Below are positions 17,545-53,009 of a stretch of 64,000 bases of DNA, in pieces (position 1 is the first letter of the stretch; each line of letters opens with the position of its first letter). The DNA is taken from assembly GCA_011390955.1 (NCBI GenBank), contig JAABRM010000016.1, positions 62,001 to 126,000 on the forward strand. Reading direction: 5' to 3'. Under the pieces are notes generated by a model. It was not told where the DNA came from and did no database searches. It saw only the letters and a list, made by a program, of their open reading frames with translations. This DNA comes from Oscillatoriales cyanobacterium (GTDB taxonomy: Bacteria > Cyanobacteriota > Cyanobacteriia > Cyanobacteriales > Laspinemataceae). A program made the translations under genes and the position numbers.

Positions 17545-18453
17545 TAAGGTATTTCTTGAGGTTCCTACGGGTTGATTTATCTTAAGAAACCGGGTTTCTT
17601 TTTGGCAATTCACAGTTTACCCTGGTATCCCACCACAGAAACCCGGTTTCTCAACTGATTTCTTTTTCCGTTGAGGCATGGGAATATTGACATCTACGAT
17701 CTTTTTGCCGGTGTCTAAGTCAGGATTTCTTGATATGGCGGCGGTTGGATTTTTTTCTAAGTAATTTTACTGAAAATGTTGTTTAAAAAACTTAATAATA
17801 ATTTAATAATTTTCGTAGCAAAATTTGCCATATAGCGGTTATTGTCCGAATTACAGAGGTTTTCTGGATTCCCGTCGGAGTTTACCCCCGCGAAGCCTGC
17901 CCCCGCGAAGGCGGGGGGCCGCCATCGGCGGGAATGACAGGTTTTTTTGTAATTCATAACTATGACAATTGCTATAAGTTTGTTAGGGAAGGCAGACAAA
18001 GAAAATTGTTAGGCAGCGATATGCGATCCGGCACGCTTCGCGAACGCGATTTTGTTAACAAAAATTTTATATTTGCGCTAAATCAAGTAAATTGCTAGAA
18101 AAATCAAGCATTTCCCCGTTAGACAGGGCTGGCTATTTTCAGATTCCAGATTTCGCTCGATCTGCATTGTCAAAAAATCTGTCATAAAATATACATATTT
18201 TGGCACATATTTTTGTAAAGAATTGAAAAGATTAAAGTTTTATGTTCAACGGTTAATTTATCAGCTAAATTAGATAAAATATTCAGAGAAATCAGTTATA
18301 TTTCTCAGGTAGTCATCGGCAATAACCCAACCATAAGACTTGATTGCGGAAAACCGCAGAATTTGATGAGTGTGAATTGAGACAAAGATTTCCGGTCATT
18401 TTTTCGGGAAATCTGTAGATCGTGTTAGATTTATTTTATTAAGGTGATTAATT
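17545..18453. other. Long spacer upstream of GH57 gene
   Basis: About 900 bp between divergent genes. It contains two GAAACC-type palindromes (17586-17598, 17638-17650) and a MITE-like element (17831-17976). The AT-rich remainder (about 18050-18450) is a plausible promoter and leader for the gene at 18454. No gene was recognised. Confidence 0.6.
17831..17976. mobile_element. MITE-like element, family A, copy 1
   Basis: 146 bp. The ends are TATAGCGGTTATTGTC and the complement of TATAGCAATTGTCATAG, starting and ending in TA, which fits TA target duplication as in IS630/Tc1-type elements. The interior has an ATTCCCG...CGGGAAT palindrome enlarged by a GC-rich insert. The same element lies in inverted orientation at 35303-35405, there 103 bp because the insert is missing. 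No ORF. Confidence 0.8.
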
Positions 18454-21186
18454 ATGTCCCCAAATCCTCAAGCTACCGATCGGTTTGAAACTCAATTGCC
18501 TGAACTTTTGGCAGAAGATTTAGAACAGATGGAAGATGAAGTAGAAACTGCTCCCGATCCCTTGCAAACCGCTCATGGGATTTACATTACGGTTCACGGG
18601 CATTTTTATCAACCGCCACGGGAAAACCCTTATTTAGATGCAATTGAACGGCAACCCGGTGCAGAACCTTATCACGATTGGAATGAGCGAATTAATCACG
18701 AATGTTATCGGCCAAATGCCTTTGCCCGCGTCTACAACGATCGCGGCGAAGTGGTCGATATTGTGAATAATTACGAGTATATGAGTTTCAATATTGGCCC
18801 AACTTTGATGAGTTGGTTGGAACGGTACGATCCACAGGTTTATCAGCGGATTTTAGATGCCGATCGCCAAAGTGCAGAACGTCTGAATGGTCACGGAAAT
18901 GCGATATCTCAAGTCTATAATCACATCATCATGCCGTTAGCCAATAAACGGGACAAATATACGCAAATTCGCTGGGGCAAAGCGGACTTTCGCCAACGAT
19001 TCGACCGAGAACCGGAGGGGATGTGGTTGGCAGAAACGGCGGTAGACTATCCTACTTTGGAAGTATTACACGAAGAAGGGATTAAATTTATTGTCTTGGC
19101 CCCGTCGCAAGCGGAACGTTGCCGTCTATTGCCCACCAAAGATCGGCCAAAACCGGAATGGAATGCGGTGGGTGGCGGTCAAATTGACCCGACTCGTCCT
19201 TATCGATGTTTTCTGCCCAGTCGTGACAAAGTGCCGGAGGCGGTTTCAGAACTAGAAAGCGAACGCAAATACATCGATATCTTCTTTTATGATGGCCCGA
19301 TTTCTCGCGACATGGGCTTTAACGATGTGCTGAAAAGTTCCCACCATTTAGCCGGACGCTTATCATTAGCGATTCACGGGGATCACCGTCCCAGTCAACT
19401 GATTTCCGTGGCAACGGACGGGGAAACCTTCGGACACCATAAACGGGATGCGGAAAAATGCCTGACTTACGCTTTTGTGGCAGAATTTCCCCGTCGTGGT
19501 TGGACATTGACCAACTTTGCCCATTACCTGAGTATCTGTCCCCCAACGTGGGAAGTGGAATTAAAGCCCGTCACCGCTTGGAGTTGTTCTCATGGGGTTG
19601 ACCGTTGGCAAGACAACTGCGGTTGTGGTGGGGGTGGGGAATGGCACCAACTCTGGCGCCGTCCCCTGCGAAATGCCCTCAACTGGTTGCGGGATCGACT
19701 GATTTCTATTTATCAAGAAGAGGGTGGCCGCTTGTTGCTGGATCCCTGGCAAGCCCGGGATGAGTATATTCAGGTGATCCGCGATCGCTCCCCAGAAAAT
19801 GTCGCCAAGTTTTTCTTGCGGCAGCAAAAACACAGCCTCACCCCCTCGGAACAAGTGGACGCCATGCGGTTATTGGAAATGCAGCGTCATGCCCTATTAA
19901 TGTTTACCAGTTGTGGTTGGTTCTTTGAAGAACTGTCCCGACCGGAAGGGACGCAGATTTTGCGCTATGCAGCCCGGGCGATCGAATTAGCGGGAGACGT
20001 AGCGGGAATTCAACTGGAAAAAGAATTTATCCAACTTCTCTCCTCCGCACCGAGTAACGTTGACTTTTTCAAAGACGGGGCGGGAGTTTATCAGCATCAA
20101 GTGATTCCCTCGCAAATTAACCTGGAAAAAGTCGCCGCCCACTATGCCATCAGCGGCTTATTTACCACATATGCCATCGAACAGCGGGTCTATTGCTATA
20201 CGGTTTATCAACGGGATTATCAGTTGCAGCGCATGGGGCCATTGACTTTGGCGGTGGGACAAGTGCAGCTTGCCTCAGAAATTACCCGCGAAAGTGTGGA
20301 ATTCGTCTTTGCGGTGCTGCATTTGGGCGGTTGGGATTTCCACTGCTGCATTCAACCCTTCTCTGGTCGTCGGGCTTATACCCAGATGAAAGAACATCTG
20401 ATGGGGATTTTAGAACTAGGCAGCGCCGCTCAAGCGATTTTGGGGATGAACCAGTATTTTGATGGCAAGTCTTTCAGTTTGCATGACTTATTTGCCGAAG
20501 AACGGCATCGGATTATGCGCTTGCTGAGTCAAGAAACTTTGTTGCGCTTGGATCAACTTTATACCCAAGTTTATCGGGATAATTATGGGGTGGTGATGGC
20601 TTTCCACCGGGATGAGTTGCCGGTGCCCAGAGAATTACAAGTGGCAGCAGAAATTGCTTTAGGAAATCGCTGCTTGAGTGCGGCAAAAGCCTTGGCAGCA
20701 GAAATCGGCGACGATCCAGAAAATGTTCTTAATGCGACGGGAGATAGTTTTTTGGGCTTGACTCATTTGGTCGAGTTAGAAACTTGTGCCACGGAAGCGG
20801 GACATTTACGTTGTCATTTGGATATTCCCGAAGTTAAGCAAATTTTGGAAAAACTGATTGTGCGATCGCTGTCCAATTTGCTTTATCAAGCCAACCCGGA
20901 AACCACCGAACCGCAGCTAGAACGCTTAGAACGGATGATTGCTGTGGGCAAACAACTGAATCTGCATTTGGCTAAGGATCAAATCCAAGAACTTTACTTC
21001 TACTGGCTGCGTGGGGATATCGGGGATCAATGCTTTTATGCCCCAAATCGCGATCGCAATGGCGATCGCCGCGAGGATGATGCCACCAATACCTCAGTTT
21101 GCTGGACGGTTTCTCAATTCCGTCGTCTCTTGCAACTGGGCAACAAACTCTCGGTCAATGTCAGCACCCAGCTAGAATCCCTTTAA
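18454..21186 (+). CDS. Glycoside hydrolase family 57 protein with DUF3536
   Basis: 910 residues. The N-terminal half is a GH57 alpha-glucanase fold (ITVHGHFYQPPRENPY, NHECY, MWLAETAVDYPTLEVL), with the likely nucleophile Glu in MWLAET and the acid in SVATDGETFGHH. The C-terminal half matches the DUF3536 extension of cyanobacterial homologues (CGCGGGGEWHQLWRRPLR, IRDRSPENV). It probably acts on storage alpha-glucan, as amylase or glucanotransferase. AAGGTG lies 9 nt before the ATG. The C-terminal 30 residues contain HIP1-derived RDRNGDRRED. Confidence 0.93.
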   Translation: MSPNPQATDRFETQLPELLAEDLEQMEDEVETAPDPLQTAHGIYITVHGHFYQPPRENPYLDAIERQPGAEPYHDWNERINHECYRPNAFARVYNDRGEVVDIVNNYEYMSFNIGPTLMSWLERYDPQVYQRILDADRQSAERLNGHGNAISQVYNHIIMPLANKRDKYTQIRWGKADFRQRFDREPEGMWLAETAVDYPTLEVLHEEGIKFIVLAPSQAERCRLLPTKDRPKPEWNAVGGGQIDPTRPYRCFLPSRDKVPEAVSELESERKYIDIFFYDGPISRDMGFNDVLKSSHHLAGRLSLAIHGDHRPSQLISVATDGETFGHHKRDAEKCLTYAFVAEFPRRGWTLTNFAHYLSICPPTWEVELKPVTAWSCSHGVDRWQDNCGCGGGGEWHQLWRRPLRNALNWLRDRLISIYQEEGGRLLLDPWQARDEYIQVIRDRSPENVAKFFLRQQKHSLTPSEQVDAMRLLEMQRHALLMFTSCGWFFEELSRPEGTQILRYAARAIELAGDVAGIQLEKEFIQLLSSAPSNVDFFKDGAGVYQHQVIPSQINLEKVAAHYAISGLFTTYAIEQRVYCYTVYQRDYQLQRMGPLTLAVGQVQLASEITRESVEFVFAVLHLGGWDFHCCIQPFSGRRAYTQMKEHLMGILELGSAAQAILGMNQYFDGKSFSLHDLFAEERHRIMRLLSQETLLRLDQLYTQVYRDNYGVVMAFHRDELPVPRELQVAAEIALGNRCLSAAKALAAEIGDDPENVLNATGDSFLGLTHLVELETCATEAGHLRCHLDIPEVKQILEKLIVRSLSNLLYQANPETTEPQLERLERMIAVGKQLNLHLAKDQIQELYFYWLRGDIGDQCFYAPNRDRNGDRREDDATNTSVCWTVSQFRRLLQLGNKLSVNVSTQLESL

Positions 21187-21188
21187 AT

Positions 21189-21293
21189 CAGCGGTTTTCT
21201 GTTGAGTAAACCACACCCCCTGTAGGGGCGATGTAGGGGCGCAAGCATTGCGCCCCTACAGGTATTTGTGCGGGCGATCGCGAAGAAAATGTC
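21189..21293. mobile_element. MITE-like element, family C, copy 2
   Basis: It shares with 11941-12053 the left flank (TTTTCTGTTGAGTAAACCAC), the AGGGGCG...CGCCCCT palindrome and a right flank of CGATCGC followed by AAGAAAA and GTCACC. The left half of the palindrome is doubled (TGTAGGGGCGATGTAGGGGCG) and part of the right terminal repeat is missing. Confidence 0.6.
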
Positions 21294-21367
21294 ACCCACC
21301 CTCACCGGATGGGAATTTGGCGTTATTTACCCCGGATCTGTACGGATCTCTCCCCTTCTCCGTATAT

Positions 21368-21406
21368 CCGTGTATTTACTTAAGTGTCATATCCGTAAAT
21401 ACACGG
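21368..21406. promoter_or_regulatory. Inverted repeat in the leader of the PatA-like gene
   Basis: A 12-bp perfect stem (CCGTGTATTTAC at 21368-21379 with GTAAATACACGG at 21395-21406) and 15-nt loop, about 220 bp before the start codon of the response regulator gene. No U-tract follows. It may be an operator or RNA hairpin. The right arm contains the recurring ATCCGTAAA motif. Confidence 0.45.
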
Positions 21407-21625
21407 GGAAAAAAATCATGGTTCCCACTGATGTGCAATTTGTATTGAACGGTTACTATGGTCAGTACAAAGACTAAAGGTGGGAAAAAATAACAATCTG
21501 CCTAAAACAAGTGAGATTAAACGCAAAAGTAGTTGATTTTACAGTTTATTTTACATTTGTCAGCGATCGAGATCGCTAATCTATTAAATATATATTTAAA
21601 ATTCATTAGGGAGCAAATTTCAACC

Positions 21626-22861
21626 ATGACACTAGCCACTCCAATTAAAAACCAAGCTTTAGCCGCACCTAAGCCAAATCAAGGGCAAAATAGAGGGTCA
21701 AATCAAGGGTCAAATCAAGGGCAAAAAAACTTAATCTCTCCAGTGCAAATCCTGCAAAATATTGTCAGCAAAAAAATTACTGGCAAATTAACCATCAGCG
21801 ACCCAAATGATGAGTCAATTTTTTGGCGCGTGTATGTGGGCAATGGCCAAATTCATTTTGCTACCAGTGCAATGGGGCAAAAAGAGCGTTTGGAATACTT
21901 CCTACAATGGTATTACCCGGAATTAGAATTTAATGGTCGGGAATTTAAGTCCGACTATCAGCAAATTTGCCAATATTGGAAATCCGGTAGGTTGTCGGTT
22001 CAGCAAGTTAGGAAATTGCTATTCTGGTTAACCCAGGATGCGTTAATTCAACTCCTGGCTTTGCCCAAAGGGGTGGTTCAATTTGAAAAAACCGTGGGAT
22101 TAGATCCGATATTACTATCGGTTTCCCTGAGAGATTTGGTATTGCCCATGCGCGGGGTAATCGGTCAATGGCAAAAACTGCAACCAGAAATTAGTTCCCC
22201 GTTTCAGCGGGTGGCGATCAAGAATCTTAAAGAAATGCCCAAACTTTTGTGGGAAAAAGTCAAGGATATCGAGTTTCTGAAAGCTTTGTGCCAAGTTTTG
22301 AGCCAAAATCCTTCTTTGTATGAAGCGGCTAAACACTTGAAAACGGATGCTTTAGGATTAGCGGCTTTATTACAACCCTTAGTCCGCGCTGGTGCGATCG
22401 AAATTCAACCTTATTATTCACCAAAAACCCAGGTGAAACCGATTATTGCTTGCATTGATGATAGTAAAACCGTGCAACGCAATGTGAAGATGGTTTTAGA
22501 AGCCAGTGGGTATCGGGTGCTGAGTATTACCGAACCGGCAAAAGCCCTGAGTACAATGGTGCGATATAAGCCTGCTTTGGTGTTGATGGATATCAATATG
22601 CCAGAAATTAATGGCTATGAATTATCGCGGATGCTGCGTCAGTCTAAGCAGTTCCATATGCTGCCGATTGTGATGTTGACCGGGCGCGATGGTTTAATTG
22701 ATAAGATGCGATCGCAGATGGTGGGGGCAAATGACTATATTACTAAGCCAGTGCCACCCCTTATGCTGCTCAATATCATCGAAAAAAATCTGCAACAAGC
22801 ACAAACCTTGACTGAGACAAAATCTTTGGTTCCAGAAAAGACGATGCTGCAAATGGCTTAG
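21626..22861 (+). CDS. PatA-type response regulator (PixG-like)
   Basis: 411 residues. An N-terminal PATAN/DUF4388-like domain (about 40-230, with RVYVGNGQIHFATS) precedes a C-terminal receiver: DDSKTVQ, Asp322 in LVLMDINMP, and DYITKPV. In Synechocystis the PatA-like PixG/PilG proteins act with CheY, CheW, MCP and CheA homologues in phototaxis and pilus control. CheW- and CheA-like genes do follow here, but only beyond an unrelated 3-kb block. The N-terminal linker carries a 12-bp in-frame repeat (SNQG units). The frame extends to 21533, but the ATG at 21626 is preceded by AGGGAG and begins the plausible protein. Confidence 0.9.
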   Translation: MTLATPIKNQALAAPKPNQGQNRGSNQGSNQGQKNLISPVQILQNIVSKKITGKLTISDPNDESIFWRVYVGNGQIHFATSAMGQKERLEYFLQWYYPELEFNGREFKSDYQQICQYWKSGRLSVQQVRKLLFWLTQDALIQLLALPKGVVQFEKTVGLDPILLSVSLRDLVLPMRGVIGQWQKLQPEISSPFQRVAIKNLKEMPKLLWEKVKDIEFLKALCQVLSQNPSLYEAAKHLKTDALGLAALLQPLVRAGAIEIQPYYSPKTQVKPIIACIDDSKTVQRNVKMVLEASGYRVLSITEPAKALSTMVRYKPALVLMDINMPEINGYELSRMLRQSKQFHMLPIVMLTGRDGLIDKMRSQMVGANDYITKPVPPLMLLNIIEKNLQQAQTLTETKSLVPEKTMLQMA

Positions 22862-22966
22862 TCTTCCGGTTCAGGCATAACTATCTCGATCATCTTACGG
22901 GGCAATCAGTCCCCAGGCATCTATACTATGGCTTTCCAGGGAATTCACAATTTACATATCTGTTTG

Positions 22967-23000
22967 AATATAGGGGCAATTGATGAATTGCCCCTATATT
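22967..23000. terminator. Perfect 15-bp hairpin between convergent genes
   Basis: Left arm 22967-22981 (AATATAGGGGCAATT), loop GATG, right arm exact complement 22986-23000. It sits between the convergent PatA-like and phospholipase D genes. There is no strong U-tract, so a terminator role is only positional. It is a relative of the AGGGGCG palindromes elsewhere in the window. Confidence 0.45.
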
Positions 23001-23083
23001 TGTTAGGAGAGCCAATAGAAAAACCCTGTAAGTTAATTTAGGCAGGGGAAACAAAAACCCGGTTTCTCGTTTGAACGATCGAA

Positions 23084-24166
23084 TTACCGATTGACCCATA
23101 AAAATAATTGACAAGCGGCTTTTAATTGAAAATAGCCCCATTTTCCTTGCCAGTCAGATATTTTCCCGGTCCATCGGCTTGACTTTTGCAAGTCAGGTTG
23201 AAAAATCAGGCGTTTAAATTCTTGGATGATTGCCCGATCGCGACAAATGGCAATAATGTCTTGCTGAAAGTAATAACTAAATAAGTCAAAGTTAGAAGAA
23301 CCGATGATTAAGTATTGGTCATCGATTAACATGGATTTTAAGTGAGTCATGCGATCGGGATAAAGATAGAGGTCAATTCCCGATCGCTCAGTTTCCCAGC
23401 GAGTATAGCGATCGTAAACTGCCCAATTATTCACCGCTGAGGTAATGAAGGAAATTTTCACCCCGTTTTTGCGGGCAGTGCGGAGGCGATCGTAAAAAGG
23501 AAATGACAAATAAGGGGTTTCAATGATAATTGATTCACGGGCTGACTCAATTAAATCAAAAACTCTGGGAAATAACTGGGCATTATCCTTGCCATTGAAT
23601 AAGTAGAGTTCAAGGTTGCCAAAATTCTGATATTCCTGTTTATGTTCTCCCTGCCAACTGGCTAAAAAGTCGGCGGTTAAAAATTCGGCGATCCTGGGAT
23701 CTTCAACTCTTAGCATCATATCATGCCACGCAAAGTTATGCTGGCTAAAATTAATTCCGCCAATGTAAATAATCCGGCGATCGATCAGAATCATTTTTTT
23801 ATGATTGCGCTGGGCAAATTTGCTGAAAAATAGCCCGACGGGGTTAATAAATCTAACTTCGACTCCATTGTGATTGAGGCGTTTGACTATTTCCCAAGTC
23901 GATCGGGCTTCTTGCTGTAATTCTGAGTTGAGTAAATTGGCCGGACTATATAAAAATCGATCGCTGATCTTATATTTAGTATAAGAGTCAATCATCAATT
24001 TTTTATCCTTGGCCGCAGAAGCTAATAAGGCTTCTGCCAAGTTTTGCCCAACGCGATCGCCCTCAAAAGAAAGGGTTTGAAGATAAACTTGGTCTTGGGC
24101 GGATAAAATATCGGCTTTTAAGCTTGCCCAAAATTCATTGGCATCGACTAAAATTTGAAAATTCAT
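23084..24166 (-). CDS. Phospholipase D-like protein (cardiolipin synthase-like)
   Basis: 360 residues with two HKD motifs: HKKMILIDRRIIYIGGINF in the first half and HLKSMLIDDQYLIIGSSNFD in the second. This is the pattern of phosphatidyltransferases such as bacterial cardiolipin synthase and of other PLD-family enzymes. There are no N-terminal membrane helices, unlike classical Cls. The ATG at 24166 overlaps the upstream stop codon as ATGA, indicating translational coupling. An ATG 13 codons further up (24205) lies inside the upstream gene and is less likely. Confidence 0.85.
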   Translation of the reverse strand: MNFQILVDANEFWASLKADILSAQDQVYLQTLSFEGDRVGQNLAEALLASAAKDKKLMIDSYTKYKISDRFLYSPANLLNSELQQEARSTWEIVKRLNHNGVEVRFINPVGLFFSKFAQRNHKKMILIDRRIIYIGGINFSQHNFAWHDMMLRVEDPRIAEFLTADFLASWQGEHKQEYQNFGNLELYLFNGKDNAQLFPRVFDLIESARESIIIETPYLSFPFYDRLRTARKNGVKISFITSAVNNWAVYDRYTRWETERSGIDLYLYPDRMTHLKSMLIDDQYLIIGSSNFDLFSYYFQQDIIAICRDRAIIQEFKRLIFQPDLQKSSRWTGKISDWQGKWGYFQLKAACQLFLWVNR

Positions 24167-24648
24167 ACCCACAAATCTTTCAATAATTGAGGAATTCCCA
24201 CACAAAAGATAAACCGGATAAACCGGCCAGCAGCCCCAAACAGAAAAAAGTTAAAAAATCTAATTTTTAACAGGGCAGAACAAACAGTGACGACAAAAAA
24301 CGGCGGAAAACTCACCCAACCGGAAAGAAAAATAAACCAGTTGCGGTGGTTGCCCATTTTTTCCATTTTTAGGATAACTTTTTCCATCTGGTTGGCATAC
24401 TTTTGCTGTTTGAGCGAAAAGGCGATCGCCCCTTGACTGGCAAAAAACATTAGAGATTTTCCTAGCATTTGTCCCAGAGTAGCCAGGAAGACGATCGCTA
24501 ATAATTGGCCAAGAGATTTGGGCAATAGGGTGGAAATTGAAAGCAGATAAACTTCGGTATTCACCACGGGAAATACTCCAGCGACCGTACAAATAATTAA
24601 AGTCGCCGCGTAAAGTCCGAATTGACTAATAAGTTCCGAAACATTCAT
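24163..24648 (-). CDS. VTT/DedA-like small membrane protein
   Basis: 161 residues, about four hydrophobic segments. The layout (VNTEVYLLSIS, GQMLGKSLMFFASQGA, FLSGWVSFPPFFVVTVCSALL) resembles the VTT/SNARE-associated (DedA, YqaA) family of lipid-scramblase-like membrane proteins. The match is by pattern only. The frame is open 76 codons upstream to 24876, but that part crosses a nested palindrome and overlaps the previous stop, so the ATG at 24648 is chosen. Its stop overlaps the phospholipase D start, so the two are probably one functional unit. Confidence 0.7.
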   Translation of the reverse strand: MNVSELISQFGLYAATLIICTVAGVFPVVNTEVYLLSISTLLPKSLGQLLAIVFLATLGQMLGKSLMFFASQGAIAFSLKQQKYANQMEKVILKMEKMGNHRNWFIFLSGWVSFPPFFVVTVCSALLKIRFFNFFLFGAAGRFIRFIFCVGIPQLLKDLWV

Positions 24649-24720
24649 GGCAGGTAATCCGCTGTAAAATGCATCTCTAATGTATTTTTCGATCGGGCAA
24701 AGCATTCGGACGGGAAGCAT

Positions 24721-24822
24721 CCCCGGCATTGCAACTATTCTTGGGAGGGCGAAGCATTCTAACGAGTGATTCTCGGTTGCTGGCGAGAGATTCCTCCCCA
24801 GAATACTTCGCCCCTGCCGGGG
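24721..24822. repeat. Nested palindrome of the GGCGAAGCATTC type
   Basis: Outer arms CCCCGGCA (24721-24728) and TGCCGGGG (24815-24822). Inner arms GGGCGAAGCATTCT (24747-24760) and AGAATACTTCGCCC (24800-24813). A related element is at 59201-59275. It lies in the gap before the VTT-like gene and argues against translation through this stretch. Confidence 0.75.
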
Positions 24823-24859
24823 AAAATAATTGGAAAATTGGAAAATAATTAATCTGCAA

Positions 24860-25852
24860 TTAATTTGCGGCACCAACTAGGGCTGATTTTCCGCGATCGG
24901 TCGTCTGGGGGTCGCGCCAGTTGTCAAACACAGCGATCGTATTCACGCAGGTCAGGGTGCAATACGGGGCGCAATCCTTCTGGGCAGCGTACTCCGCATC
25001 CAGGTGTTCCTGAGTGTATTCCAGGAAGGGAATGCCGGGGTAGCCCCGTTGCTGGGAGCAGCGATGCACCAGACCATCCTCGCAGACATAGAGATAGCGA
25101 GATCCAGCCCGACACCGCCACTGGTTAGGACGGCCTTCTACAAGGTTATTCTGGAATGCCATAAAGTGCGACATCGGCCAGGGGGTGCCGGAACGGTAAT
25201 CTTGGTAGACCTCTCGTTCCTTTGAACCCAGAGGCTTAAGTTGCCCATTGCCATCGTGGAGCACGCTTACGGTACTGGTAAAACCCAGCGTCCGGGCATG
25301 ACGACCAATGGTTAAAGCATCCTCTGGGTTAGAGATGCCCGCACCAATCACCGAGTTGATGTTCACGTCAAATTTCGCATGGGCTGCCAGGTGGTCGAGA
25401 TTATGCCCAATGATTTTCAGGCTTTTTTTCGAGACATTATCTGGCTGAATGTTGTCAATGCTGATCTGCATCCGCAGCAAGCCCGCATCGTTGAGCCGAT
25501 TGATGCGATCGGGATTGAGATAGTAGGCGTTGGTCAGAAGTTCCGGCACTATTCCGTGATTCGCGATGCGTCGGATTAGATCGTAAATATCTGGGTGCAT
25601 CAGGGGTTCGCCGCCACTGAACGAAACCATTGAGGCGCCGAGTTCTGCGGCTTTGTCGATGCGCCGAAACATCTCCTCGGTGGGTACTGGGGGCGAGTGG
25701 TCGTCGTATTCGTTGCAGTAGGCGCAAGCGAGATTGCAGCGTCGGATCGCAATCATATTAATCAGAATTGGGTGCTTGGTTGAAGCGATCGCTCGTGCGC
25801 CGAGTTTGACCATTGCCAGTTTGGGCGCCAGTCCGTTGTGCTTTTTTAGCAT
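24860..25852 (-). CDS. Radical SAM protein with SPASM-like C-terminus
   Basis: 330 residues. The [4Fe-4S]/SAM motif is Cys39-x3-Cys43-x2-Cys46 (CNLACAYC), followed by the SAM-binding FSGGEPLMHP. The C-terminal part has further cysteines (CRAGSRYLYVCEDGLVHRC, CAPYCTLTC), like auxiliary-cluster SPASM or twitch domains. The substrate is unknown. AGGA lies just before the ATG. By eye its base composition is clearly richer in G+C than the neighbouring genes, with few A/T-ending codons, suggesting separate origin. It is the first gene of the block with the VTT-like and phospholipase D genes. Confidence 0.9.
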   Translation of the reverse strand: MLKKHNGLAPKLAMVKLGARAIASTKHPILINMIAIRRCNLACAYCNEYDDHSPPVPTEEMFRRIDKAAELGASMVSFSGGEPLMHPDIYDLIRRIANHGIVPELLTNAYYLNPDRINRLNDAGLLRMQISIDNIQPDNVSKKSLKIIGHNLDHLAAHAKFDVNINSVIGAGISNPEDALTIGRHARTLGFTSTVSVLHDGNGQLKPLGSKEREVYQDYRSGTPWPMSHFMAFQNNLVEGRPNQWRCRAGSRYLYVCEDGLVHRCSQQRGYPGIPFLEYTQEHLDAEYAAQKDCAPYCTLTCVNTIAVFDNWRDPQTTDRGKSALVGAAN

Positions 25853-25937
25853 ATCTTTTCCTTTTGACTTGACATACTGGGATAATCATGGAGTCTTTGG
25901 AGTCTTTAATGTCGATATTGTAATCACAACTTATTCG

Positions 25938-26073
25938 ATATCGGCAAAAGTCCTGAGTACAATCATGCCGATTAATATAATCTAAAATAATCTAAAAAAA
26001 ATCTACAATCAGTACAACTGGTGACTGAACCAAAAAAACTTTGGCTCCAGAAAAGACGATGCTGCAAATGGTC
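25938..26073 (+). pseudogene. Decayed copy of the 3' part of the PatA-like gene
   Basis: Two stretches match the intact gene in order. First, GGCAAAAGTCCTGAGTACAA (about 25942-25961) matches about 22537-22556 with one change. Second, about 26022-26071 matches 22810-22856, including 33 bp with one mismatch ending TGCTGCAAATGG. The roughly 250 bp between these anchors in the intact gene are reduced to about 50. Reading frame and stop are lost. It lies directly upstream of cheW, on the same strand, so the ancestral order was probably patA-like then cheW. Confidence 0.75.
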
Positions 26074-26208
26074 TATTTTTTTACGATTCATCTCCCTAGA
26101 CTAGATCGGTTATGACTCGTTGATGGCTTGCTAGGGAACGATCGGCTATTCGATCGCATTTCTGTAAAAGGCGATCGCTGATATATAGCTTATATATATA
26201 GCCGATAT

Positions 26209-26943
26209 ATGGGTGATATATGGCTTATATATTTTGATATCTTGGATCGGATTGGCAGTCTAAATGGGATCGGTGCGGATAAAGTGAAAGATTACTTAGG
26301 CTTTCAGGTCAAAAATTCTGTGCGCTTGGTAGTGCCTGCGGATTGGGTGGTGGAAACGATCGCCCTGAATTGCCATGAAATTTGTCCCATTCCTGGTGTT
26401 ACTGATGGGATTTTGGGAGCGATCGATTACCAAGGACAGTTAGTTTGGGTGATTGATTTAGGGGAATATTTGACTCATTTACTCGGTTTAGCCTCTGTCC
26501 CTTCGAGGGATGAAAATTCTCTGAGAGAAAATAAATTAACCCATACATCAACCCATACATCAACCCATGAATTACCTAATAAATTACCTAATCAATTAAC
26601 TAATAAATTACCTAATAAATTAACTAATCAATTAACCGGGGTGGCGATCGCATTGCCCGCTTCCCAGTCCCAGAAATCCCAGTCTCAGAAATCAATCAAC
26701 TCGCAGCCATTAATCTGGGTTGTCTCGGAACTACAGGGCATCGTCTCTTTAAATTCCGCCAAGTCCAGACCCTTACCCAGTCAGTTTATCTCCTTACTCG
26801 GTGCTTATTTTAGCGGTTTAACCGAAATTAATTCCACTTCATCGCCCACAAACTCCACAACTGTGGCAATCTTAAATATAGATGGTTTATTTTCTGCTTT
26901 AGAATCTCAAAGTAGAGAAATTGCGGCAATTTGGGACATTTAA
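26209..26943 (+). CDS. CheW-like scaffold protein with low-complexity insertion
   Basis: 244 residues. The CheW fold is recognisable at both ends (YLGFQVKNSVRLVVPADWV, GILGAIDYQGQLVWVIDLG; then LIWVVSELQGIVSL, TTVAILNIDGLFSAL). About 65 residues in the middle are an insertion of in-frame tandem repeats (THTS units; LPNK/LTNQ units from a 12-bp DNA repeat) plus a Ser/Gln stretch. It should couple the CheA-like kinase to receptors. The first ATG (26209) is used, but the family-like part starts at a GTG, codon 26 (26284), and the extra 25 residues derive from a TATATA-rich repeat, so the later start is quite possible. Confidence 0.75.
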   Translation: MGDIWLIYFDILDRIGSLNGIGADKVKDYLGFQVKNSVRLVVPADWVVETIALNCHEICPIPGVTDGILGAIDYQGQLVWVIDLGEYLTHLLGLASVPSRDENSLRENKLTHTSTHTSTHELPNKLPNQLTNKLPNKLTNQLTGVAIALPASQSQKSQSQKSINSQPLIWVVSELQGIVSLNSAKSRPLPSQFISLLGAYFSGLTEINSTSSPTNSTTVAILNIDGLFSALESQSREIAAIWDI

Positions 26944-27103: not shown

Positions 27104-27123
27104 AAAGGAGGATGAATAGTTTG
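27104..27123 (+). promoter_or_regulatory. Shine-Dalgarno AAAGGAGG deciding the cheA start
   Basis: AAAGGAGG (27104-27111) directly abuts the ATG at 27112, leaving no spacer. The in-frame TTG at 27121 has 9 nt to it, a normal distance. TTG initiation, giving a protein three residues shorter, is therefore plausible. The hairpin-forming repeat just upstream could affect access to this site. Confidence 0.5.
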
Positions 27124-30051
27124 CTGGCACCACTAGATTTAGAGGCGATCGCTCAAGAGTCGCGCAATTGTTTTTTATATGAAGAAGCGCCAGATTATTT
27201 GGTGATTTTAGAGCAAGGGATTGCTCGGTTAGGCAATCCCAAAGGGACGATTAATCTGGATGAGCAATATCAAAAATTAATTCGGGTGGCGCATTCCCTG
27301 AAAGGGGGGGCTGGTTTAGCGGAAATGCCTGCCCTTTCTCAGTTGTCTCATAAGTTAGAAGATTTACTGATTGCGATTCAAGAAAAGCGGGTAAGTTTGC
27401 ATGAAAAAATCTCCAGCGATCGCATTTTAAATGATGCCGGGGTTAAATCTGAAGTGACATCTGATGGATTCGATCGCACTACTTCCGCCTATCAATTATT
27501 GTTGATGAGTCTGGATCGAGTCAGCGCGTTACTATTTGAAGCCCTAAATCAGCCAGAATTATCCGATGAAACTACTCCACAAATAGCCGATCCGGTTTGT
27601 GATGCGATCGATCAATTTTTGGCTTCTCAGGGTTTGGCTAACTCTGAGAAATTAGCCGATTTGGAGAATATAAATCCTTTAGATCGTCATCTAGATCGTC
27701 ATCCCCAGGTGAGTAGTTTTATCAAAACTTCTCTGGAAGTGGATTTAGAAGAATGTTTGCAAAGAATTGAATCTAGCTTAAGGGAAAATCAAGCCAGTGA
27801 AAGTAGTTCCAGAGAAGCGATCGCGACTTTTGCCGCAGAATGCACATTGCTGGGAGACGCATTAGAGGTGAATTGGTTAAGTGAAATCGGTTCTCGGCTG
27901 GAAAAATGGTGTGAAGAAACCGATATTTCGCTGCCACAGGTGACAGAAGCGATCGGCCAAATTCGGCAGCAAAGAAATCAAACCCTTTATGGTTCGGAAG
28001 GTTCGGAAACCGAATTATTCAACTCAGAGGAGGAAGAAAATTCGGCGATCGATGCAGAAACAAAGTGGGAAAATCCAGAGGAATTTTCTGATTTAGATTC
28101 TGATTTAGATTTGCCAGAAACCCCACCACTTTCTTCCCCGGTGCCCCAGCGTTTTTTAAAGTATTTAATTCGGCAACCGGACAATGCGCGATCGCCAGAA
28201 AATATTAATCTGCGAGTTTCCTTATCCCGCATCGATCGGATGACCGACACCGTAGGCGAACTGCTGATTAATTATGAACAACTAGAACAATGCGAACAAC
28301 AATTAAAAGATGCCATTCTCGGCCAAAATTTATTACCCAAACCTAAAAGTGCAAATAGCGCAAATGGCACCGTCGCACATAACCTAAAATCATCTATTTT
28401 GCTAAAAACTGTTTCCCAAATTAATCAGCGATTCGATCGAAATCGGATTGACATGGTTTTGGGAGCGCGTAACCTGCGGATGACCCTGGCAAATATGCGA
28501 TCGTCCTTAGAACAATTGTATCGGGATTTAACGGAAGCGCGAATGGTGCCTTTTCGGGAAATGACCGAACGCTTTTTTGTGTTAATTGATAATTTAAAAC
28601 AACAATACAAAAAATCAGTTAATTTAGTCGTTTCTGGGCAAGATGTTTTAATCGATCGCTGGATAGTAGAACAATTACAAACTCCCTTAACTCACTTGTT
28701 ACGCAATGCCTTCGACCACGGCATTGAGTTGCCCAAAGAACGAATGATCCAAGGCAAATCTAATCAGGCAACTATTCATTTGTCTGCGGTTTCTCACGGC
28801 ACTTATGTGGTGATTTCTATTGCCGATGATGGTCGAGGCATTAATCCAGAAAAAATTTACCAAAAAGCCTTGGAAAAAGGACTAATTTCTCCAGAGAAAA
28901 AAACCTGGTCAGCGGATGAAATTTTGCAATTTTTGTTTACTCCTGGGTTTTCCACCGCAGAACGGGTGACAGATATTTCCGGTCGGGGTGTGGGATTAGA
29001 TATTGTGGTGCAAGAAGTGGCGAAATTAGGCGGTTCGGTGGCGGTAAAGACCACATTAGGAATGGGCACCCAATTTGCGATAACTATTCCTTTAACCCTG
29101 AGTATTTTACCTCTGCATATTTTTCGCTGTCAAGGGCAAACTTTTGCCATCCCTGCGGCTAATGTTTTGGAGACAATCCGTTTAGCAGAAAACCAGTCAA
29201 ATATTCAGTGGCAAAATCAATTTATTCCCGTATTTCATTTAAATGAATTGTTGCCGGTTCGGTCATGGTGTCCCAGTGAGCGATCGGCGCAATCGGCAAG
29301 TTCCTCAGAAGCATCTAATTTAGCTAGTTTAGATAATTTAGGATTAGTGGTTAAAGTTAAAGAAAATCCCATTATTTTAGTGGTTGATGCTTTATTAGGT
29401 GAACGGCGATTAGTTCTAAAACCCTTAGATTACCGGGTGCCAGTTCCGCCTTATGTCGCCGGTTGTACTGTCCTGGGAAATCGTCAGATTGTTCCGGTAC
29501 TTTCTCCGGATCATTTTGTCAGTTTAATCAGAAAATTTACTTCTAACGATCCGCAAACTCTAACCCCAGAAACTCTCACCCCAGAAAGCATAAACCCAGA
29601 AAGCATAAACCCAGAAAATCTGGTAGAAAATCTGGATCGAGTAGAAGCAAAAAATGGCGCGATCGCACATCATCTAGCAAAGCGAATTTTAATTGTGGAT
29701 GATTCGCGCACCGTGCGTTGTTTGTTGCAACAAACTTTGTCTCAAGCGGGTTTTTTGGTAGAAGAAGCGAGTGATGGTGCAGCGGGTTTTGCTAAGGTAG
29801 CAGAAGCCCAAGGTCAATTTGATTTAGTAATTTCCGATTTGGAAATGCCCCATCTAGATGGTTTGGGATTTTTGCAGAAAATTCGGGCATCTCAATGGTC
29901 AGATTTGCCTGTAGGGATGTTAACTTCCCAGGCTAAGGAAATTTATGTGAAAACGGCTAAAGATTTGGGGGTCAAATTTTATTTAACTAAGCCATTTAAA
30001 CCCGCTGAATTCCTGAATTTAATTGAAAAAACTGTATCAAAAAAGTTATAA
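27112..30051 (+). CDS. CheA-type hybrid histidine kinase (PixL-like)
   Basis: 979 residues. Hpt domain with His61 in VAHSLKGGAGL; a second all-helical Hpt-like region (about 205-300) without a clear histidine motif; dimerisation segment (SRIDRMTDTVGELLINYEQL); CheA-type HATPase (LLRNAFDHGIELP, IADDGRGIN, GRGVGLDIV); CheW-like regulatory domain (about 665-800). A C-terminal receiver has DDSRTVR, Asp909 in LVISDLEMP, and TKPFKP. The linker before the receiver holds a 15-bp in-frame repeat (SINPE units). It should phosphorylate the PatA-like regulator in a Pix/Tax-type system. No MCP gene is in the window. Confidence 0.94.
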   Translation: MNSLLAPLDLEAIAQESRNCFLYEEAPDYLVILEQGIARLGNPKGTINLDEQYQKLIRVAHSLKGGAGLAEMPALSQLSHKLEDLLIAIQEKRVSLHEKISSDRILNDAGVKSEVTSDGFDRTTSAYQLLLMSLDRVSALLFEALNQPELSDETTPQIADPVCDAIDQFLASQGLANSEKLADLENINPLDRHLDRHPQVSSFIKTSLEVDLEECLQRIESSLRENQASESSSREAIATFAAECTLLGDALEVNWLSEIGSRLEKWCEETDISLPQVTEAIGQIRQQRNQTLYGSEGSETELFNSEEEENSAIDAETKWENPEEFSDLDSDLDLPETPPLSSPVPQRFLKYLIRQPDNARSPENINLRVSLSRIDRMTDTVGELLINYEQLEQCEQQLKDAILGQNLLPKPKSANSANGTVAHNLKSSILLKTVSQINQRFDRNRIDMVLGARNLRMTLANMRSSLEQLYRDLTEARMVPFREMTERFFVLIDNLKQQYKKSVNLVVSGQDVLIDRWIVEQLQTPLTHLLRNAFDHGIELPKERMIQGKSNQATIHLSAVSHGTYVVISIADDGRGINPEKIYQKALEKGLISPEKKTWSADEILQFLFTPGFSTAERVTDISGRGVGLDIVVQEVAKLGGSVAVKTTLGMGTQFAITIPLTLSILPLHIFRCQGQTFAIPAANVLETIRLAENQSNIQWQNQFIPVFHLNELLPVRSWCPSERSAQSASSSEASNLASLDNLGLVVKVKENPIILVVDALLGERRLVLKPLDYRVPVPPYVAGCTVLGNRQIVPVLSPDHFVSLIRKFTSNDPQTLTPETLTPESINPESINPENLVENLDRVEAKNGAIAHHLAKRILIVDDSRTVRCLLQQTLSQAGFLVEEASDGAAGFAKVAEAQGQFDLVISDLEMPHLDGLGFLQKIRASQWSDLPVGMLTSQAKEIYVKTAKDLGVKFYLTKPFKPAEFLNLIEKTVSKKL

Positions 30052-30070
30052 GTTTCACCTAATTGCTATT

Positions 30071-30748
30071 TTAGCTACTGTTTTTGCTGCTGGTTTCCGC
30101 TAAAACTTGTCTCACCCAAGCGCGAAAAGAACGCAATAAAGTTGTTTCTCCTAAAGTTTGACTTTGGCTGAGAAATTTCGTTATTTCTGTCACCGATAAC
30201 AGGGGAAAAGCCAGCGATCGCTCTACCATGATATATTTTCCCCCGTCTAACTGCAAAAACTTGACCACACCGCGATCGCAGCGCCAAATTTCTGGCACCC
30301 CCATTGCCGCATAAATTCCTTCTCGATCCACAGAACTACTGGAAACATCAATTTCAATTACTAAATCTGGGGGCGGATCGGTAGTTAAATCAATCCGGGA
30401 TTTTCCCTTAACCAATCGTTCATTTTGGATATAAAAACTTGAATCCGGTTCAGCCCCTTTTGCTAAATCTGGACGCTTCAAAGTTGTCGAACCCGCTCGC
30501 AGGATTTCTATATTTAACTCTTCGGCTAATACCCCCACCAAAGCCGTTAACATTTCTTTTGGTTTTTCGTGGTCTAACAGCGGCGTCATAATTTCTAATA
30601 ATCCTCGGTCATAGCATAAGCGAATAGTCCGACTGTCTCCCATTTCGGCTAACAGTTGTTCATAAGTATGCCAGCTAATCTGATTGAGCACAACTCTTCC
30701 GGTGACAGTCGGGGTTGTTGGGGTTAAAGTCGGTGCAGTTATGGTCAT
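30071..30748 (-). CDS. Uma2 family (DUF820) restriction-endonuclease-fold protein, copy 1
   Basis: 225 residues of the Uma2/DUF820 family, a PD-(D/E)XK-fold group greatly expanded in cyanobacteria. The core motif PDLVIEIDVSSSS followed by GIYAAMGVPEIW is intact. Cellular role is unknown. The neighbour at 30939-31616 is almost identical. Differences cluster in about 25 residues after LLDHE (here KPKEMLTALVGVLAEELN). Its upstream sequence retains the last codons of maf, showing that it arose by tandem duplication of the maf-proximal copy. Confidence 0.9.
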   Translation of the reverse strand: MTITAPTLTPTTPTVTGRVVLNQISWHTYEQLLAEMGDSRTIRLCYDRGLLEIMTPLLDHEKPKEMLTALVGVLAEELNIEILRAGSTTLKRPDLAKGAEPDSSFYIQNERLVKGKSRIDLTTDPPPDLVIEIDVSSSSVDREGIYAAMGVPEIWRCDRGVVKFLQLDGGKYIMVERSLAFPLLSVTEITKFLSQSQTLGETTLLRSFRAWVRQVLAETSSKNSS

Positions 30749-30840
30749 AAAAAATCTGCTCCAATTTAAATTATTTTTTTAACCAAAAGTTTTTCGTAGG
30801 TTGGGTCCACCGTCCACGAAACCCAAAGGCGTCCGTACCT

Positions 30841-30916
30841 ACAAATACTGTTGGGTTTTGCTTCGCTCAACCCAACCTACAAATACTGTTGGGTTTTGCT
30901 TCGCTCAACCCAAACT
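30841..30916. repeat. Two tandem 38-bp repeats with internal hairpin
   Basis: Copies at 30841-30878 and 30879-30916 differ at one or two bases. Each contains TTGGGTTTTGCTTCGCTCAA, where TTGGGTT pairs with AACCCAA. They lie between the duplicated Uma2 genes, downstream of the maf-proximal copy. Confidence 0.85.
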
Positions 30917-30938
30917 ACAAATAGTAATTATGGCTATT

Positions 30939-31616
30939 TTAGCTGCTGTTTTTGCTGCTGGTTTCCGCTAAAACTTGTCTCACCCAAGCCCGAAAAGAAC
31001 GCAATAAAGTTGTTTCCCCTAAAGTTTGACTTTGGCTGAGAAATTTCGTTATTTCTGTCACCGATAACAGGGGAAAAGCCAGCGATCGCTCTACCATGAT
31101 ATATTTTCCCGTATCTAACTGTAAAAACTTGACCACACCGCGATCGCATCGCCAAATTTCTGGCACCCCCATTGCCGCATAAATTCCTTCTCGATCCACA
31201 GAACTACTGGAAACATCAATTTCAATTACCAAGTCCGGGGGCGGATCGGTAGTTAAATCAATGCGAGATTTTCCCTTAACCAATCGTTCATTTTGGATAT
31301 AAAAACTTGAATCTGGTTCAGCCCCTTTTGCTAAATCTGGACGCTTCAAAGTTGTCGAACCGACACTTAAGATTTCTAAATTTACTTCTTCTGCTAAAGC
31401 ATCAACAAATTTTTCTAAAATTCGTTTTGGGTTTTCGTGGTCTAACAGCGGCGTCATAATTTCTAATAATCCTCGGTCATAGCATAAGCGAATAGTCCGA
31501 CTATCTCCCATTTCGGCTAACAGTTGTTCATAAGTATGCCAGCTAATCTGATTGAGAACAACTCTTCCGGTGACAGTCGGGGTTGTCGGGGTTAAAGTCG
31601 GTGCAGTTATGGTCAT
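30939..31616 (-). CDS. Uma2 family (DUF820) restriction-endonuclease-fold protein, copy 2
   Basis: 225 residues, near-identical to the gene at 30071-30748, with the same PDLVIEIDVSSSS core. The divergent patch reads NPKRILEKFVDALAEEVN; outside it I see only one further difference (FLQLDTGKY against FLQLDGGKY). It starts 22 bp after the maf stop on the same strand, probably in one transcript. Either copy could be the template of recent gene conversion. Function unknown. Confidence 0.9.
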   Translation of the reverse strand: MTITAPTLTPTTPTVTGRVVLNQISWHTYEQLLAEMGDSRTIRLCYDRGLLEIMTPLLDHENPKRILEKFVDALAEEVNLEILSVGSTTLKRPDLAKGAEPDSSFYIQNERLVKGKSRIDLTTDPPPDLVIEIDVSSSSVDREGIYAAMGVPEIWRCDRGVVKFLQLDTGKYIMVERSLAFPLLSVTEITKFLSQSQTLGETTLLRSFRAWVRQVLAETSSKNSS

Positions 31617-31638
31617 AATAAATCTGCTCCAATTTAAA

Positions 31639-32265
31639 TTATTTTTTCAACCAAAAGTCAGTCACATTATAACCTAAATCAGTAATCATCTGCCGCAGCA
31701 AAGGTAAACTTAATCCAATCACGTTTGTATGGCAGCCTTCGAGTTTTTCCACAAACAGTCCTCCTTGACCATCAATGGCAAAACAACCGGCACAATTGAG
31801 AGGTTCTCCTGTTGCCACATAAGAAACAATTTGTCGATCGCTGATATGGGCAAAATAAACTTTAGTCACTTGGCAACGGACTAAAGTATTGTTTTTAGTT
31901 AAATCTATCAGTGCATGACCTGTGTAAAGTTCGCCCACAGAACCCCGCATTTTTTGCCAACGAGCGATCGCCACTTCGGGAGTTTCTGGTTTACCGTGAA
32001 TTTCCCCATCTAATACCAACACCGAGTCACATCCTAATACTAACATCGGAGAATGGTTCGGATCCTGCGGGGTAAATTCTTGGGCGACCACTTCTGCCTT
32101 ACAGCGAGCTAAAGTCTGCACTAATTCACTGGGTTCATCAATTTTAACTTGTGACTCATCAAAATTGCTGCGACAAACAATTGGTCCAAATCCCGCTTGT
32201 TCTAATAACATTAATCGAGCGGGAGAAGTTGAAGCTAAAATAAATGCCGGATTTCCCATAATCAT
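31639..32265 (-). CDS. maf: Maf/YceF/YhdE family nucleotide pyrophosphatase
   Basis: 208 residues. Typical N-terminus [19 protein letters not shown], the Glu/Asp-containing [20 protein letters not shown], and the Arg of [13 protein letters not shown] are all present. Maf proteins hydrolyse non-canonical or modified nucleoside triphosphates and are linked to septum inhibition. Start at 32265, or at the ATG two codons on (32259), which gives [10 protein letters not shown]. The last codons (FWLKK) and the following 25 bp also occur upstream of the first Uma2 copy, marking the duplication boundary. Confidence 0.93.
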
Positions 32266-37519: not shown

Positions 37520-40500
37520 ATGAGAATAAAAATTAAGACTTGGATGAAAAATTGGATACATTTCCTACTGGGGTTACTCCTAGCATTTGGTTTATTTACT
37601 TGTCAGAGCATAAATATGATCGCAAATTTTTCCCAGGCAGTGGAACCTTTCTCACGGGTTGCCCCACTTCCGCAGCCACAAATTCCCGACTGGATCGAAC
37701 AAATTAGTCCGACGAAAGAAGCCGAACCCCTTGCCCAAATTCGCATCCGATTTAAAGACCCAGTAATTCCTCTAGAGAGTCTCGACTCTCCCGAACAGCA
37801 AATCAAACTAAACCTGTTTCAAATTCAGCCCGCTTTACCGGGTCGATTTCGGTTTTTAACCCCGCGCATGGTGGGATTTCAAGCAGACGAACCCCTGCCC
37901 AAAGCCACGCGAATTCAAGTTACTGTAAAAGCGGGTTTAGCCGATTTAAATAATCATCGTCTGACTCAAGATTTAGCGTGGACATTTACCACTGACCCCA
38001 TCCAAATTACCAATTTACCTCAAACTAATCCTAATCCATATAGCTCAGGATATCTGGATATTAAGCCAAACCTAGCAATTACCTCAAATGTTCAATTAGA
38101 CTTGAACTCTTTGGCCAACAATGCCACCTTAATTTCTGAGTCAACCCAAGAGAGAATTAGCCTAAAAGCTGAACAACCAACCGCCGAAAATCAGCAACCA
38201 TATCCGATTTTTTTGGCCAATGGTTCCACGGATCCATTTAATCTGATTAACCGTCAATGGCAGTATCAGTTAATTCCTCAACAAGAACTCCAAAAAAATA
38301 CTCGTTATCGCTTGGAATTAGCTCCAGGAATCCGGCCTATCCGAGGTAATTTAGTCAGCGACAAAGCGTTTACCAGTCAATTAGCAACCTATGCTCCCTT
38401 AAAATTTGAAAAAATAGAAACCAATCGCGGATGGGGATCCAGATTTGATCGAGGAATCTCTGGATTAAGATTTAATAACCCCTTGAATGCTGATTCAGCC
38501 TTAGAAAATATTCGCTTTAGTCCCCCACCTAAACCAGACATTTCTCTATTAGAAATTTATGAAGGCAACAACTATGTTGGGATTAATCCTTGGGCATTAG
38601 AACCAGAAACCACCTACATCATTACTATCGGCGAAAACCTTAAGGATACCTTTGGTCAAACCTTGGGTAAGCCCGTAACTATTCAGCATAAAACCGGAAA
38701 TTTACTGGCCAATATTTCTACCCAAACTGGGTTAAATATTTTCCCCAAGGGTGCCAAAGCTAATTTAAAAATTTCCACGGTAAATTTGCCGGAACCCAAC
38801 TATAAAGCCGCTTACAAAGTCGTCCAACCCACTGACTTAGTATATCGCCATAACTCAGAAGAATTTCTGCCAAGTTCAAACACTTGGAAAAAGTTCGCTA
38901 TTTCCGGCAAAAAAAATCAAATCACCCAGACTGAAATCGCTTTAGAGCAAGAACTGCAAGCCCCTACCGGCATGGTGGCTTATGGTGTCCAAGCCAAGAC
39001 AGTTCCCTACCAAGAAAATAATCAGCAAAAATGGCAAGAACCCACTTATTATGGTTTCGCCCAAATCACTAATTTAGGCGTCTTTACTCAATGGTTTCCG
39101 AAGTCTGGATTAATTCGGGTCAATCATTTGTCTGATGGGGCGCCAGTTGCCGGTGCCACTGTAGAAATTTATCAGTCAAAATTGAATGAAACACCTCGTT
39201 CTGAACCGCAACCTTGTGCTACGGGAATTACCGACCAAACAGGAACTTTTATCCTGAATAACCAGCAGTTAAAACAATGCATTCCCAATAATGAACCACC
39301 AGAATTATTAGTGATTGCGCGAGAAAACCAAGATTGGGCTTATGCTCGATGCGATCGCAACAGTGGGAGCTATGGTTATGGCATTTATCCCGAATGGGAC
39401 TATGGTCAAATTCAACCACGGGGGACTATTTTTTCCGATCGCGCCCTTTATCAACGGGGAGAAAAAGCATCATTTACTAGCTTGGCGGCTTACTTGCAAA
39501 ATAGCCAGTTAAAGCTGCATCAAAATAGCCAATATACTCTCACCTTGTCCCAGCCCAATGGTACGCAAAAAAATCTGGGTAATTTTACCACAAATCAATT
39601 TGGCACATTTTCTTATGACTGGGAAATTGAACCGGATAGTCCTTTAGGTTACTACTCTCTATCCGCCAGTGGCACAAATGGCAATGTCCTTTCTGGTTCT
39701 TTCCGAGTTGCCGAGTTTAAACCGCCAAATTTTCAGGTGGATTTAACCCTAGATAAAGAGATTGCCATTAGCCAGCAAATTGTCGAGGCAAAAGCCGAAG
39801 GTCAATATTTATTTGGCTCCCCCTTAGCGGCAGGTCAGCTAAAGTATTATGTCACCCGCAGTCAGGCAAATTTTACCCCCAAAGGTTGGGAAGAATTTGC
39901 TTTTGGACAACAGTGGTTTTGGCCGGAAACTCCACCATCAATTGATGCTCAGGTGCGGCAAAATTATGCTGAGTTAGATCCTAAAGGTCTGGGAACTTTT
40001 AGCTTTAAAATTGGGAATGACTTACCTTATCCCATGACCTATCAAGTATCCGCAGAAGTCTCGGATAGCTCAAATCAAGCGGTGGCTGCTTCTCAATCGG
40101 TGATTGCTTTACCGAGCGATCGCCTCATTGGGTTAAAAAGTGACTTTGCGGCTGAAGTGGACAAAGATTTTGTCGTAGAAATGATTGCCACTGATGCCAC
40201 AGGTAAAGTGCTTAAAGGAGAACGAATTCGCCTGCAACTGCAAAAAGTTGACTATAAACCGATGCCGCGTTCAATGTCAGAACCTTGGCCGAAATATAAA
40301 CTTGAATATACAACCGTAGCGGAAAAACAGATCGCATCTGGCGGCCAAGCCGAAAAGATTTCTCTCCAAGCGAAAGAAGCCGGTTACTACCGCATTCGGG
40401 CTAATTTTGCCAACGCCAAAGATGAAGTAATGGCGACAGATTTATCCATTTGGATTAGTGGGAAAAATCCTGTATTTTGGGGATATCGTGGAGAACAGGA

Positions 40501-48184: not shown

Positions 48185-48390
<206 letters not shown>

Positions 48391-52742: not shown

Positions 52743-53009
52743 ATGATTCAAATTAATACCGAACTGAGCGATCGCACAGCCGATCGGTTAGCATATATTC
52801 AGCAAAACACCGAACAAGACCTGACTCAAATTCTTGATGCCGCCATTGAGACTTATTATCAAAAACTGCAACAAGAAAATAAGCAACGGCCTTTTCAAAT
52901 GTTAGAACAGTCGGGGTTTATTGGCTGTTGTTCGGTGGAAAGCGATTTGTCTAGCAGCTATAAGTCTGTCCTCAAAGCTGAATTGGAAGCCAAATATGAT
53001 CATCGTTGA
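52743..53009 (+). CDS. VapB-like antitoxin
   Basis: 88 residues. The N-terminal half (IQINTELSDRTADRLAYIQQNTEQDLTQILDAAIETYY) fits a ribbon-helix-helix DNA-binding antitoxin. The C-terminal part, ending FIGCCSVESDLSSSYKSVL, would wrap the toxin. Its last 14 nt overlap the PIN-domain gene, the usual antitoxin-toxin order. It should repress its own promoter. Confidence 0.82.
   Translation: MIQINTELSDRTADRLAYIQQNTEQDLTQILDAAIETYYQKLQQENKQRPFQMLEQSGFIGCCSVESDLSSSYKSVLKAELEAKYDHR

Follow-up and report, generated by a model that had tools for sequence, protein, structure and literature searches.

A chemotaxis operon of Planktothricoides, a genus of filamentous cyanobacteria, is split between its regulator gene and cheW. 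The best explanation is the insertion of a block of three genes at the regulator–cheW junction, with a long target duplication, for which a probability of about three in four can be given. That 25938–26073 carries the scar of an insertion is well supported. The window (the whole stretch of 64,000 nucleotides analyzed here) lies inside contig C90 of a genome of 7.1 Mb.

Results

The split operon and the genomes compared

In the window, the regulator gene, which is the first gene of the operon, is followed by three genes on the opposite strand, encoding a PLD-domain protein, a VTT-like protein and a radical SAM protein, and then by the relic of a regulator gene, cheW and cheA (Table 1). The name "patA-like", given earlier to the regulator from the sequence alone, is correct by its domains, DUF4388 (PATAN) and Response_reg. 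The regulator shares 90.5% amino acid identity with its same-genus orthologue. The cluster of regulator, cheW and cheA contains no separate cheY or receptor gene. Behind cheA, at 30062–31658, there are two tandem Uma2 genes, which are 94% identical across 730 bp.

Two genomes of the same genus were compared, G001 (Planktothricoides sp. SR001) and G002. They are 99.7% alike and were counted as a single comparison genome. When the GTDB collection was scanned with CheW, SR001 was the sole genome found. Rearrangement is heavy in the genus: the counterparts of three parts of the window, 16–32.3 kb, 35.4–43.4 kb and from 43.8 kb on, lie at 0.28, 1.22 and 3.28 Mb of G002, respectively.

Table 1. Positions in the window of the operon genes, the block and the two copies of the putative duplicated target.
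Feature	Position	Strand	Remarks
PATAN (DUF4388)-receiver regulator, intact, PatA/PixG-like, first gene of the operon	21626–22861	+	PF14332, PF00072
Left copy of the putative duplicated target (3′ third of the regulator gene and start of the spacer)	22536–22946	+	direct repeats; spacer match 22928–22946
Dispersed palindrome GGGGCAATTGATGAATTGCCCC at the left junction	22967–23000	.	13 sites in the genome
PLD-domain protein, block	23084–24205	−	PF13091, PF00614; orthologue at 1.22 Mb of G002, 89% (amino acids)
VTT-like membrane protein, block	24163–24876	−	VTT_dom E = 3e-6, below the curated cut-off
Radical SAM protein, block	24860–25852	−	PF04055; 85% (amino acids) with G003
Right copy of the putative duplicated target: decayed 3′ fragment of the regulator gene (relic)	25938–26073	+	direct repeats with the intact gene
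Original regulator–cheW spacer, running on from the relic	26074–26208	+	unbroken alignment of 25995–26912 to L023 9012–9931, 81%
cheW	26209–26943	+	PF01584; 78% (amino acids) with G002
cheA with a receiver at the C-terminus	27112–30051	+	Hpt, HATPase_c, CheW and Response_reg domains

The relic and the extent of the duplication

The sequence-only reading had taken 25938–26073 for a decayed 3′ fragment belonging to a second regulator gene, on the basis of two collinear matches just upstream of cheW. Both matches are present and both are direct. The first, 22536–22562 against 25942–25968 (89%), lies within the receiver domain. The second, 22782–22857 against 25995–26072 (blastn E = 1e-13 in the whole genome), spans the C-terminal tail of the regulator almost to the stop codon and contains the 33 bp with one mismatch that had been noticed. 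Their scores, 39 and 86, were never reached in 1000 dinucleotide shuffles, where the maxima were 30 and 35. That the second match might be a common repeat, which had been named as the point that could undo this reading, is ruled out, because the relic with its flanks matches only two places in the genome of 7.1 Mb, the relic itself and the intact gene. Between the two matches there are 219 bp in the intact gene and 26 bp in the relic. The relic has thus lost about 190 bp internally.

The three opposite-strand genes had been described as bracketed by an intact and a broken copy of the 3′ part of the same gene. This is the case, and the duplication is even larger than reported. At 22928–22946, 67 bp past the stop codon of the intact gene, 18 of 19 bp are identical to the relative's spacer (L023 9152–9170) at the collinear place. 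The BLAST E of this spacer match is 0.057 in the search of 3.6 × 19 kb, and about 3e-5 after the authors' own scaling to the spacer alone. The preceding spacer sequence behind the intact copy, 22862–22927, is mostly unlike the relative's spacer. Since a piece of spacer stands behind the intact copy, the duplicated target reached from about 22536 or earlier to 22946 or beyond, which corresponds to at least about 410 bp.

The empty site in the relatives

Relatives in which the regulator gene and cheW are adjacent had been proposed as the comparison to make. G001 and G002 are such relatives: in both, the regulator gene and cheW are direct neighbors, about 170 bp of spacer apart, and the block is absent between them. 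The same adjacency is seen in those other genera of this family whose contigs span the junction, except that G005 has two tandem regulator copies. The window matches the arrangement of the relative in two parts, 17969–22860 to L023 4235–9093 and 25995–26912 to L023 9012–9931, and the relative's last 80 bp of the regulator gene are matched twice. The repeat sequence has one match in each same-genus relative and two in this genome. The relic and the following 135 bp align in one continuous stretch with the 3′ end of the regulator gene and the spacer of the relatives. This continuity with the adjacent arrangement indicates that the operon was split by insertion, as the sequence-only reading had suggested first.

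Its second suggestion, that a tandem patA copy was replaced, fared less well. In such a case, the regulator–cheW part would have been duplicated in tandem, and the first cheW together with the 5′ part of regulator gene number two would later have given way to the block. The two flanks would be identical to those observed, and G005, from another genus of the same family, shows that tandem regulator copies are possible in this operon, with two of them before cheW (L025 3178–6762). However, neither 22947–23083 nor 25899–25936 shows a collinear match to the first cheW or to the 5′ part of a second copy, and two events with a precise replacement are demanded. This course is rather unlikely.

It is far less likely still that the relic derives from an old paralogous regulator, orthologous to copy 2 of G005, even though the position of the relic just before cheW equals that of copy 2. 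The latter is only 55% identical overall and forms a long branch of its own in the tree, and the other genera carry one regulator copy. The relic is not closer to copy 2 than to the intact gene, and it bears the C-terminal tail specific to Planktothricoides. With copy 2 so divergent and this tail in the relic, a young local duplication is the better reading.

Junctions of the block

The right edge of the block lies between 25898, where the homology to the region upstream of the G003 radical SAM gene ends, and about 25936. The left edge lies between 22947 and the stop codon of the PLD gene at 23084, where the homology to G002 ends. The coding part of the VTT-like gene probably starts at about 24651. 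The domain search of the block genes revealed PLD, VTT-like and radical SAM only, with no transposase or integrase, and in the repeat search no inverted repeats stand out as bracketing the block. The palindrome GGGGCAATTGATGAATTGCCCC at the left junction is dispersed, with 22 sites in each same-genus genome and 13–47 copies per genome within the family, in addition to the sites in this genome; the reversed control pattern gave 0.

Origin and age of the block

In G001 and G002, the block sits behind an alpha-2-macroglobulin (A2M) gene (L040 8481–10781). It is decaying there: the VTT gene is frameshifted, and the radical SAM gene is 5′-truncated and contains stops, while all three genes are open in the window. 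Regulator-like sequence was looked for beside the block in G002 and none was found. In this genome, the A2M gene is located in the same window (37520–43354) without the block behind it. The response regulator gene found behind the block in G002 lies on contig C113 here, also without the block. No block remnants were found at the corresponding A2M and response-regulator sites of this genome. The place of the block in G002 is itself a rearrangement point, and the block is partly lost there.

The dS of the PLD gene between the two species is 0.30, against 0.14–0.60 for nine other genes. Because this synonymous divergence matches that of the neighbors, the block was relocated, not recently acquired. 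Its age within the genus equals that of its surroundings, and the relocation took place in one of the two lineages. A recent foreign origin is disfavored by the dS and by the presence of the block elsewhere in the genus. The same evidence bears on a Campbell-type integration, in which a circular element carrying the 3′ end of the regulator gene would have brought in captured foreign DNA. Direct repeats flanking the cargo are expected from this as well, but the divergence of the block is ordinary for the genus, the relatives have it elsewhere with no regulator fragment adjoining, and it lacks an integrase or transposase. Such an integration is improbable.

In 113 gap-free coding columns, the private differences number 13 in the relic, 6 in the intact copy and 9 in G002; about 20 sites differ between the relic and the intact copy and about 16 between the intact copy and G002. 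By themselves, such three-taxon counts do not decide whether the duplication preceded or followed the species split. A fragment without function is expected to diverge more quickly than a gene, and the duplication would therefore be of about the age of the species split or somewhat younger.

Proposed course of the insertion

Insertion with target duplication could have proceeded as follows. The ancestral operon would have been regulator–cheW–cheA. In the lineage of this genome, a block of roughly 3 kb (PLD, VTT and radical SAM genes, all in opposite orientation), which the genus already carried at another place, would have entered the junction between the regulator gene and cheW. The target of at least about 410 bp, consisting of the 3′ third of the regulator gene and the start of the spacer, would have been duplicated as direct repeats on either side of it. 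The left copy would leave the regulator gene whole. The right copy, severed from the 5′ part, would have lost about 190 bp and decayed to the relic. Insertion and duplication were presumably one event. No excised form or intermediate stage was seen, and the two could therefore also be separate events. A possible route is the joining of the fragment to breaks staggered across two chromosome copies of a polyploid cell; another is the recombination of a circular intermediate.

cheW is now 3.3 kb from the regulator gene, beyond the opposite-strand genes. cheW and cheA would therefore need their own promoter, to be expected within the 356 bp that separate the radical SAM gene from cheW.

Similar pairs of gene and fragment elsewhere in the genome

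Local repeat pairs were surveyed in 2.07 Mb (29%) of this genome. The criteria were that one copy falls in an ORF of 150 aa or more, that the other is outside any ORF, and that there are at most 3 matches in the searched set. Twelve gene-fragment pairs were obtained, all direct (12/12) and none inverted. The 3′ fragments are downstream of the whole gene (3/3) and the 5′ fragments are upstream (2/2), the placing predicted if the target is duplicated around an insert. The bias to direct repeats is no proof of insertion, because simple tandem duplication also gives a local direct bias. In 0.44 Mb of G002, the survey gave 1 direct and 0 inverted pair; a search of these 0.44 Mb for the empty sites of the other cases gave no overlap. 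Some of the pairs in this genome enclose toxin-antitoxin genes, and the contents of the pairs are suggestive. By inference, all of them could share one mechanism; the empty site is confirmed by relatives for the regulator–cheW locus only.

Five loci illustrate the contents. At L106/L107 (C53:59675–61288), a nucleotidyltransferase-HEPN pair lies within 64-bp direct repeats of the preceding gene. At L079 (C46:153583–157994), a PIN-domain gene and a small upstream ORF lie within 179-bp direct repeats of the preceding gene. At L092 (C77:14434–16192), a gene for a HEPN_Swt1-RNase III-dsRNA-binding fusion has direct repeats of 128 bp on either side. At L141 (C18:234139–239795), a 5′ fragment of aroB (101 bp, 99% identical) is found 4.4 kb upstream, and trypsin-like protease genes are on the opposite strand between aroB and the fragment. 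At L090 (C56:136136–138700), seen in the first survey pass, the end of a glycosyltransferase-like gene overlaps the next start codon; between repeats of 70 bp (97% identical) there is 1.3 kb with a membrane-like protein of 262 aa, and both genes are whole.

The parallel drawn earlier with serS in the same window holds. The sequence 48186–48384 is a decayed 3′ end of serS, 92% identical to the serS end of the relatives, and is 5.4 kb from serS. The serS ORF (53626–55077) runs into a hydrophobic extension, because its native 3′ end was lost at 53818. A PIN-domain protein (52921–53412) is encoded among the genes between the fragment and serS.

It can be speculated, tentatively, that in Planktothricoides a recurrent process free of transposase inserts or relocates small gene cassettes at gene boundaries, with target duplications of 60–400 bp. 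Its cargo might possibly include toxin-antitoxin pairs, proteases, the RNase III-HEPN gene and the PLD/VTT/radical SAM block. If this process is real, one flanking gene is left whole, and such insertions would therefore survive selection and shape gene order genome-wide. The putative recurrence in this genome is a more interesting lead than the single scar.

Discussion

The empty site shows how a vertically inherited block interrupted a signaling operon while the regulator was spared. Gene fragments of this sort are usually ignored; taken as scars, they can reveal the age and orientation of insertions. In domain content and in the order regulator, cheW and cheA, the operon resembles cyanobacterial chemotaxis operons of the PatA/PixG type; it differs from them in lacking a separate cheY or receptor gene and in the interruption between the regulator gene and cheW.

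The insertion is unlike a transposon or insertion sequence, since transposase is absent and the duplication is at least about 410 bp instead of short. The scar belongs to a known but little-studied type of gene movement that needs no recognizable transposase. In Arabidopsis, transposed genes are relocated host genes flanked by direct repeats; these repeats, often genic, correspond to the empty site at the orthologous place, and a circular-intermediate model has been proposed for the transposed genes (PMC2869330). The block shares with them the relocation of host genes and the direct repeats matching the empty site. The differences are that the host is a bacterium, not a eukaryote, and that a repeat at the donor site is not seen here.

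Insertion with long target duplication was described by Nobusato et al. (2000) between two strains of Helicobacter pylori, as recounted in PMC1643837, PMC3154945 and PMC4978471. As in H. pylori, the cargo here lies between long direct target repeats that are present once at the empty site of the compared genome, and there are no transposon ends and no transposase or integrase with terminal inverted repeats. Such inserts are "frequently associated" with restriction-modification genes in H. pylori, in the wording of PMC1643837, which is a frequent association and no strict requirement. The present case differs in its cyanobacterial host, in its cargo of PLD, VTT and radical SAM genes instead of restriction-modification genes, in the vertical inheritance and relocation of this cargo, and in the decay of one of the two repeat copies. 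Insertion with long target duplication, for which restriction-modification genes of H. pylori are the main known examples, may be common in a filamentous cyanobacterium, where the cases suggest other cargo, toxin-antitoxin pairs included.
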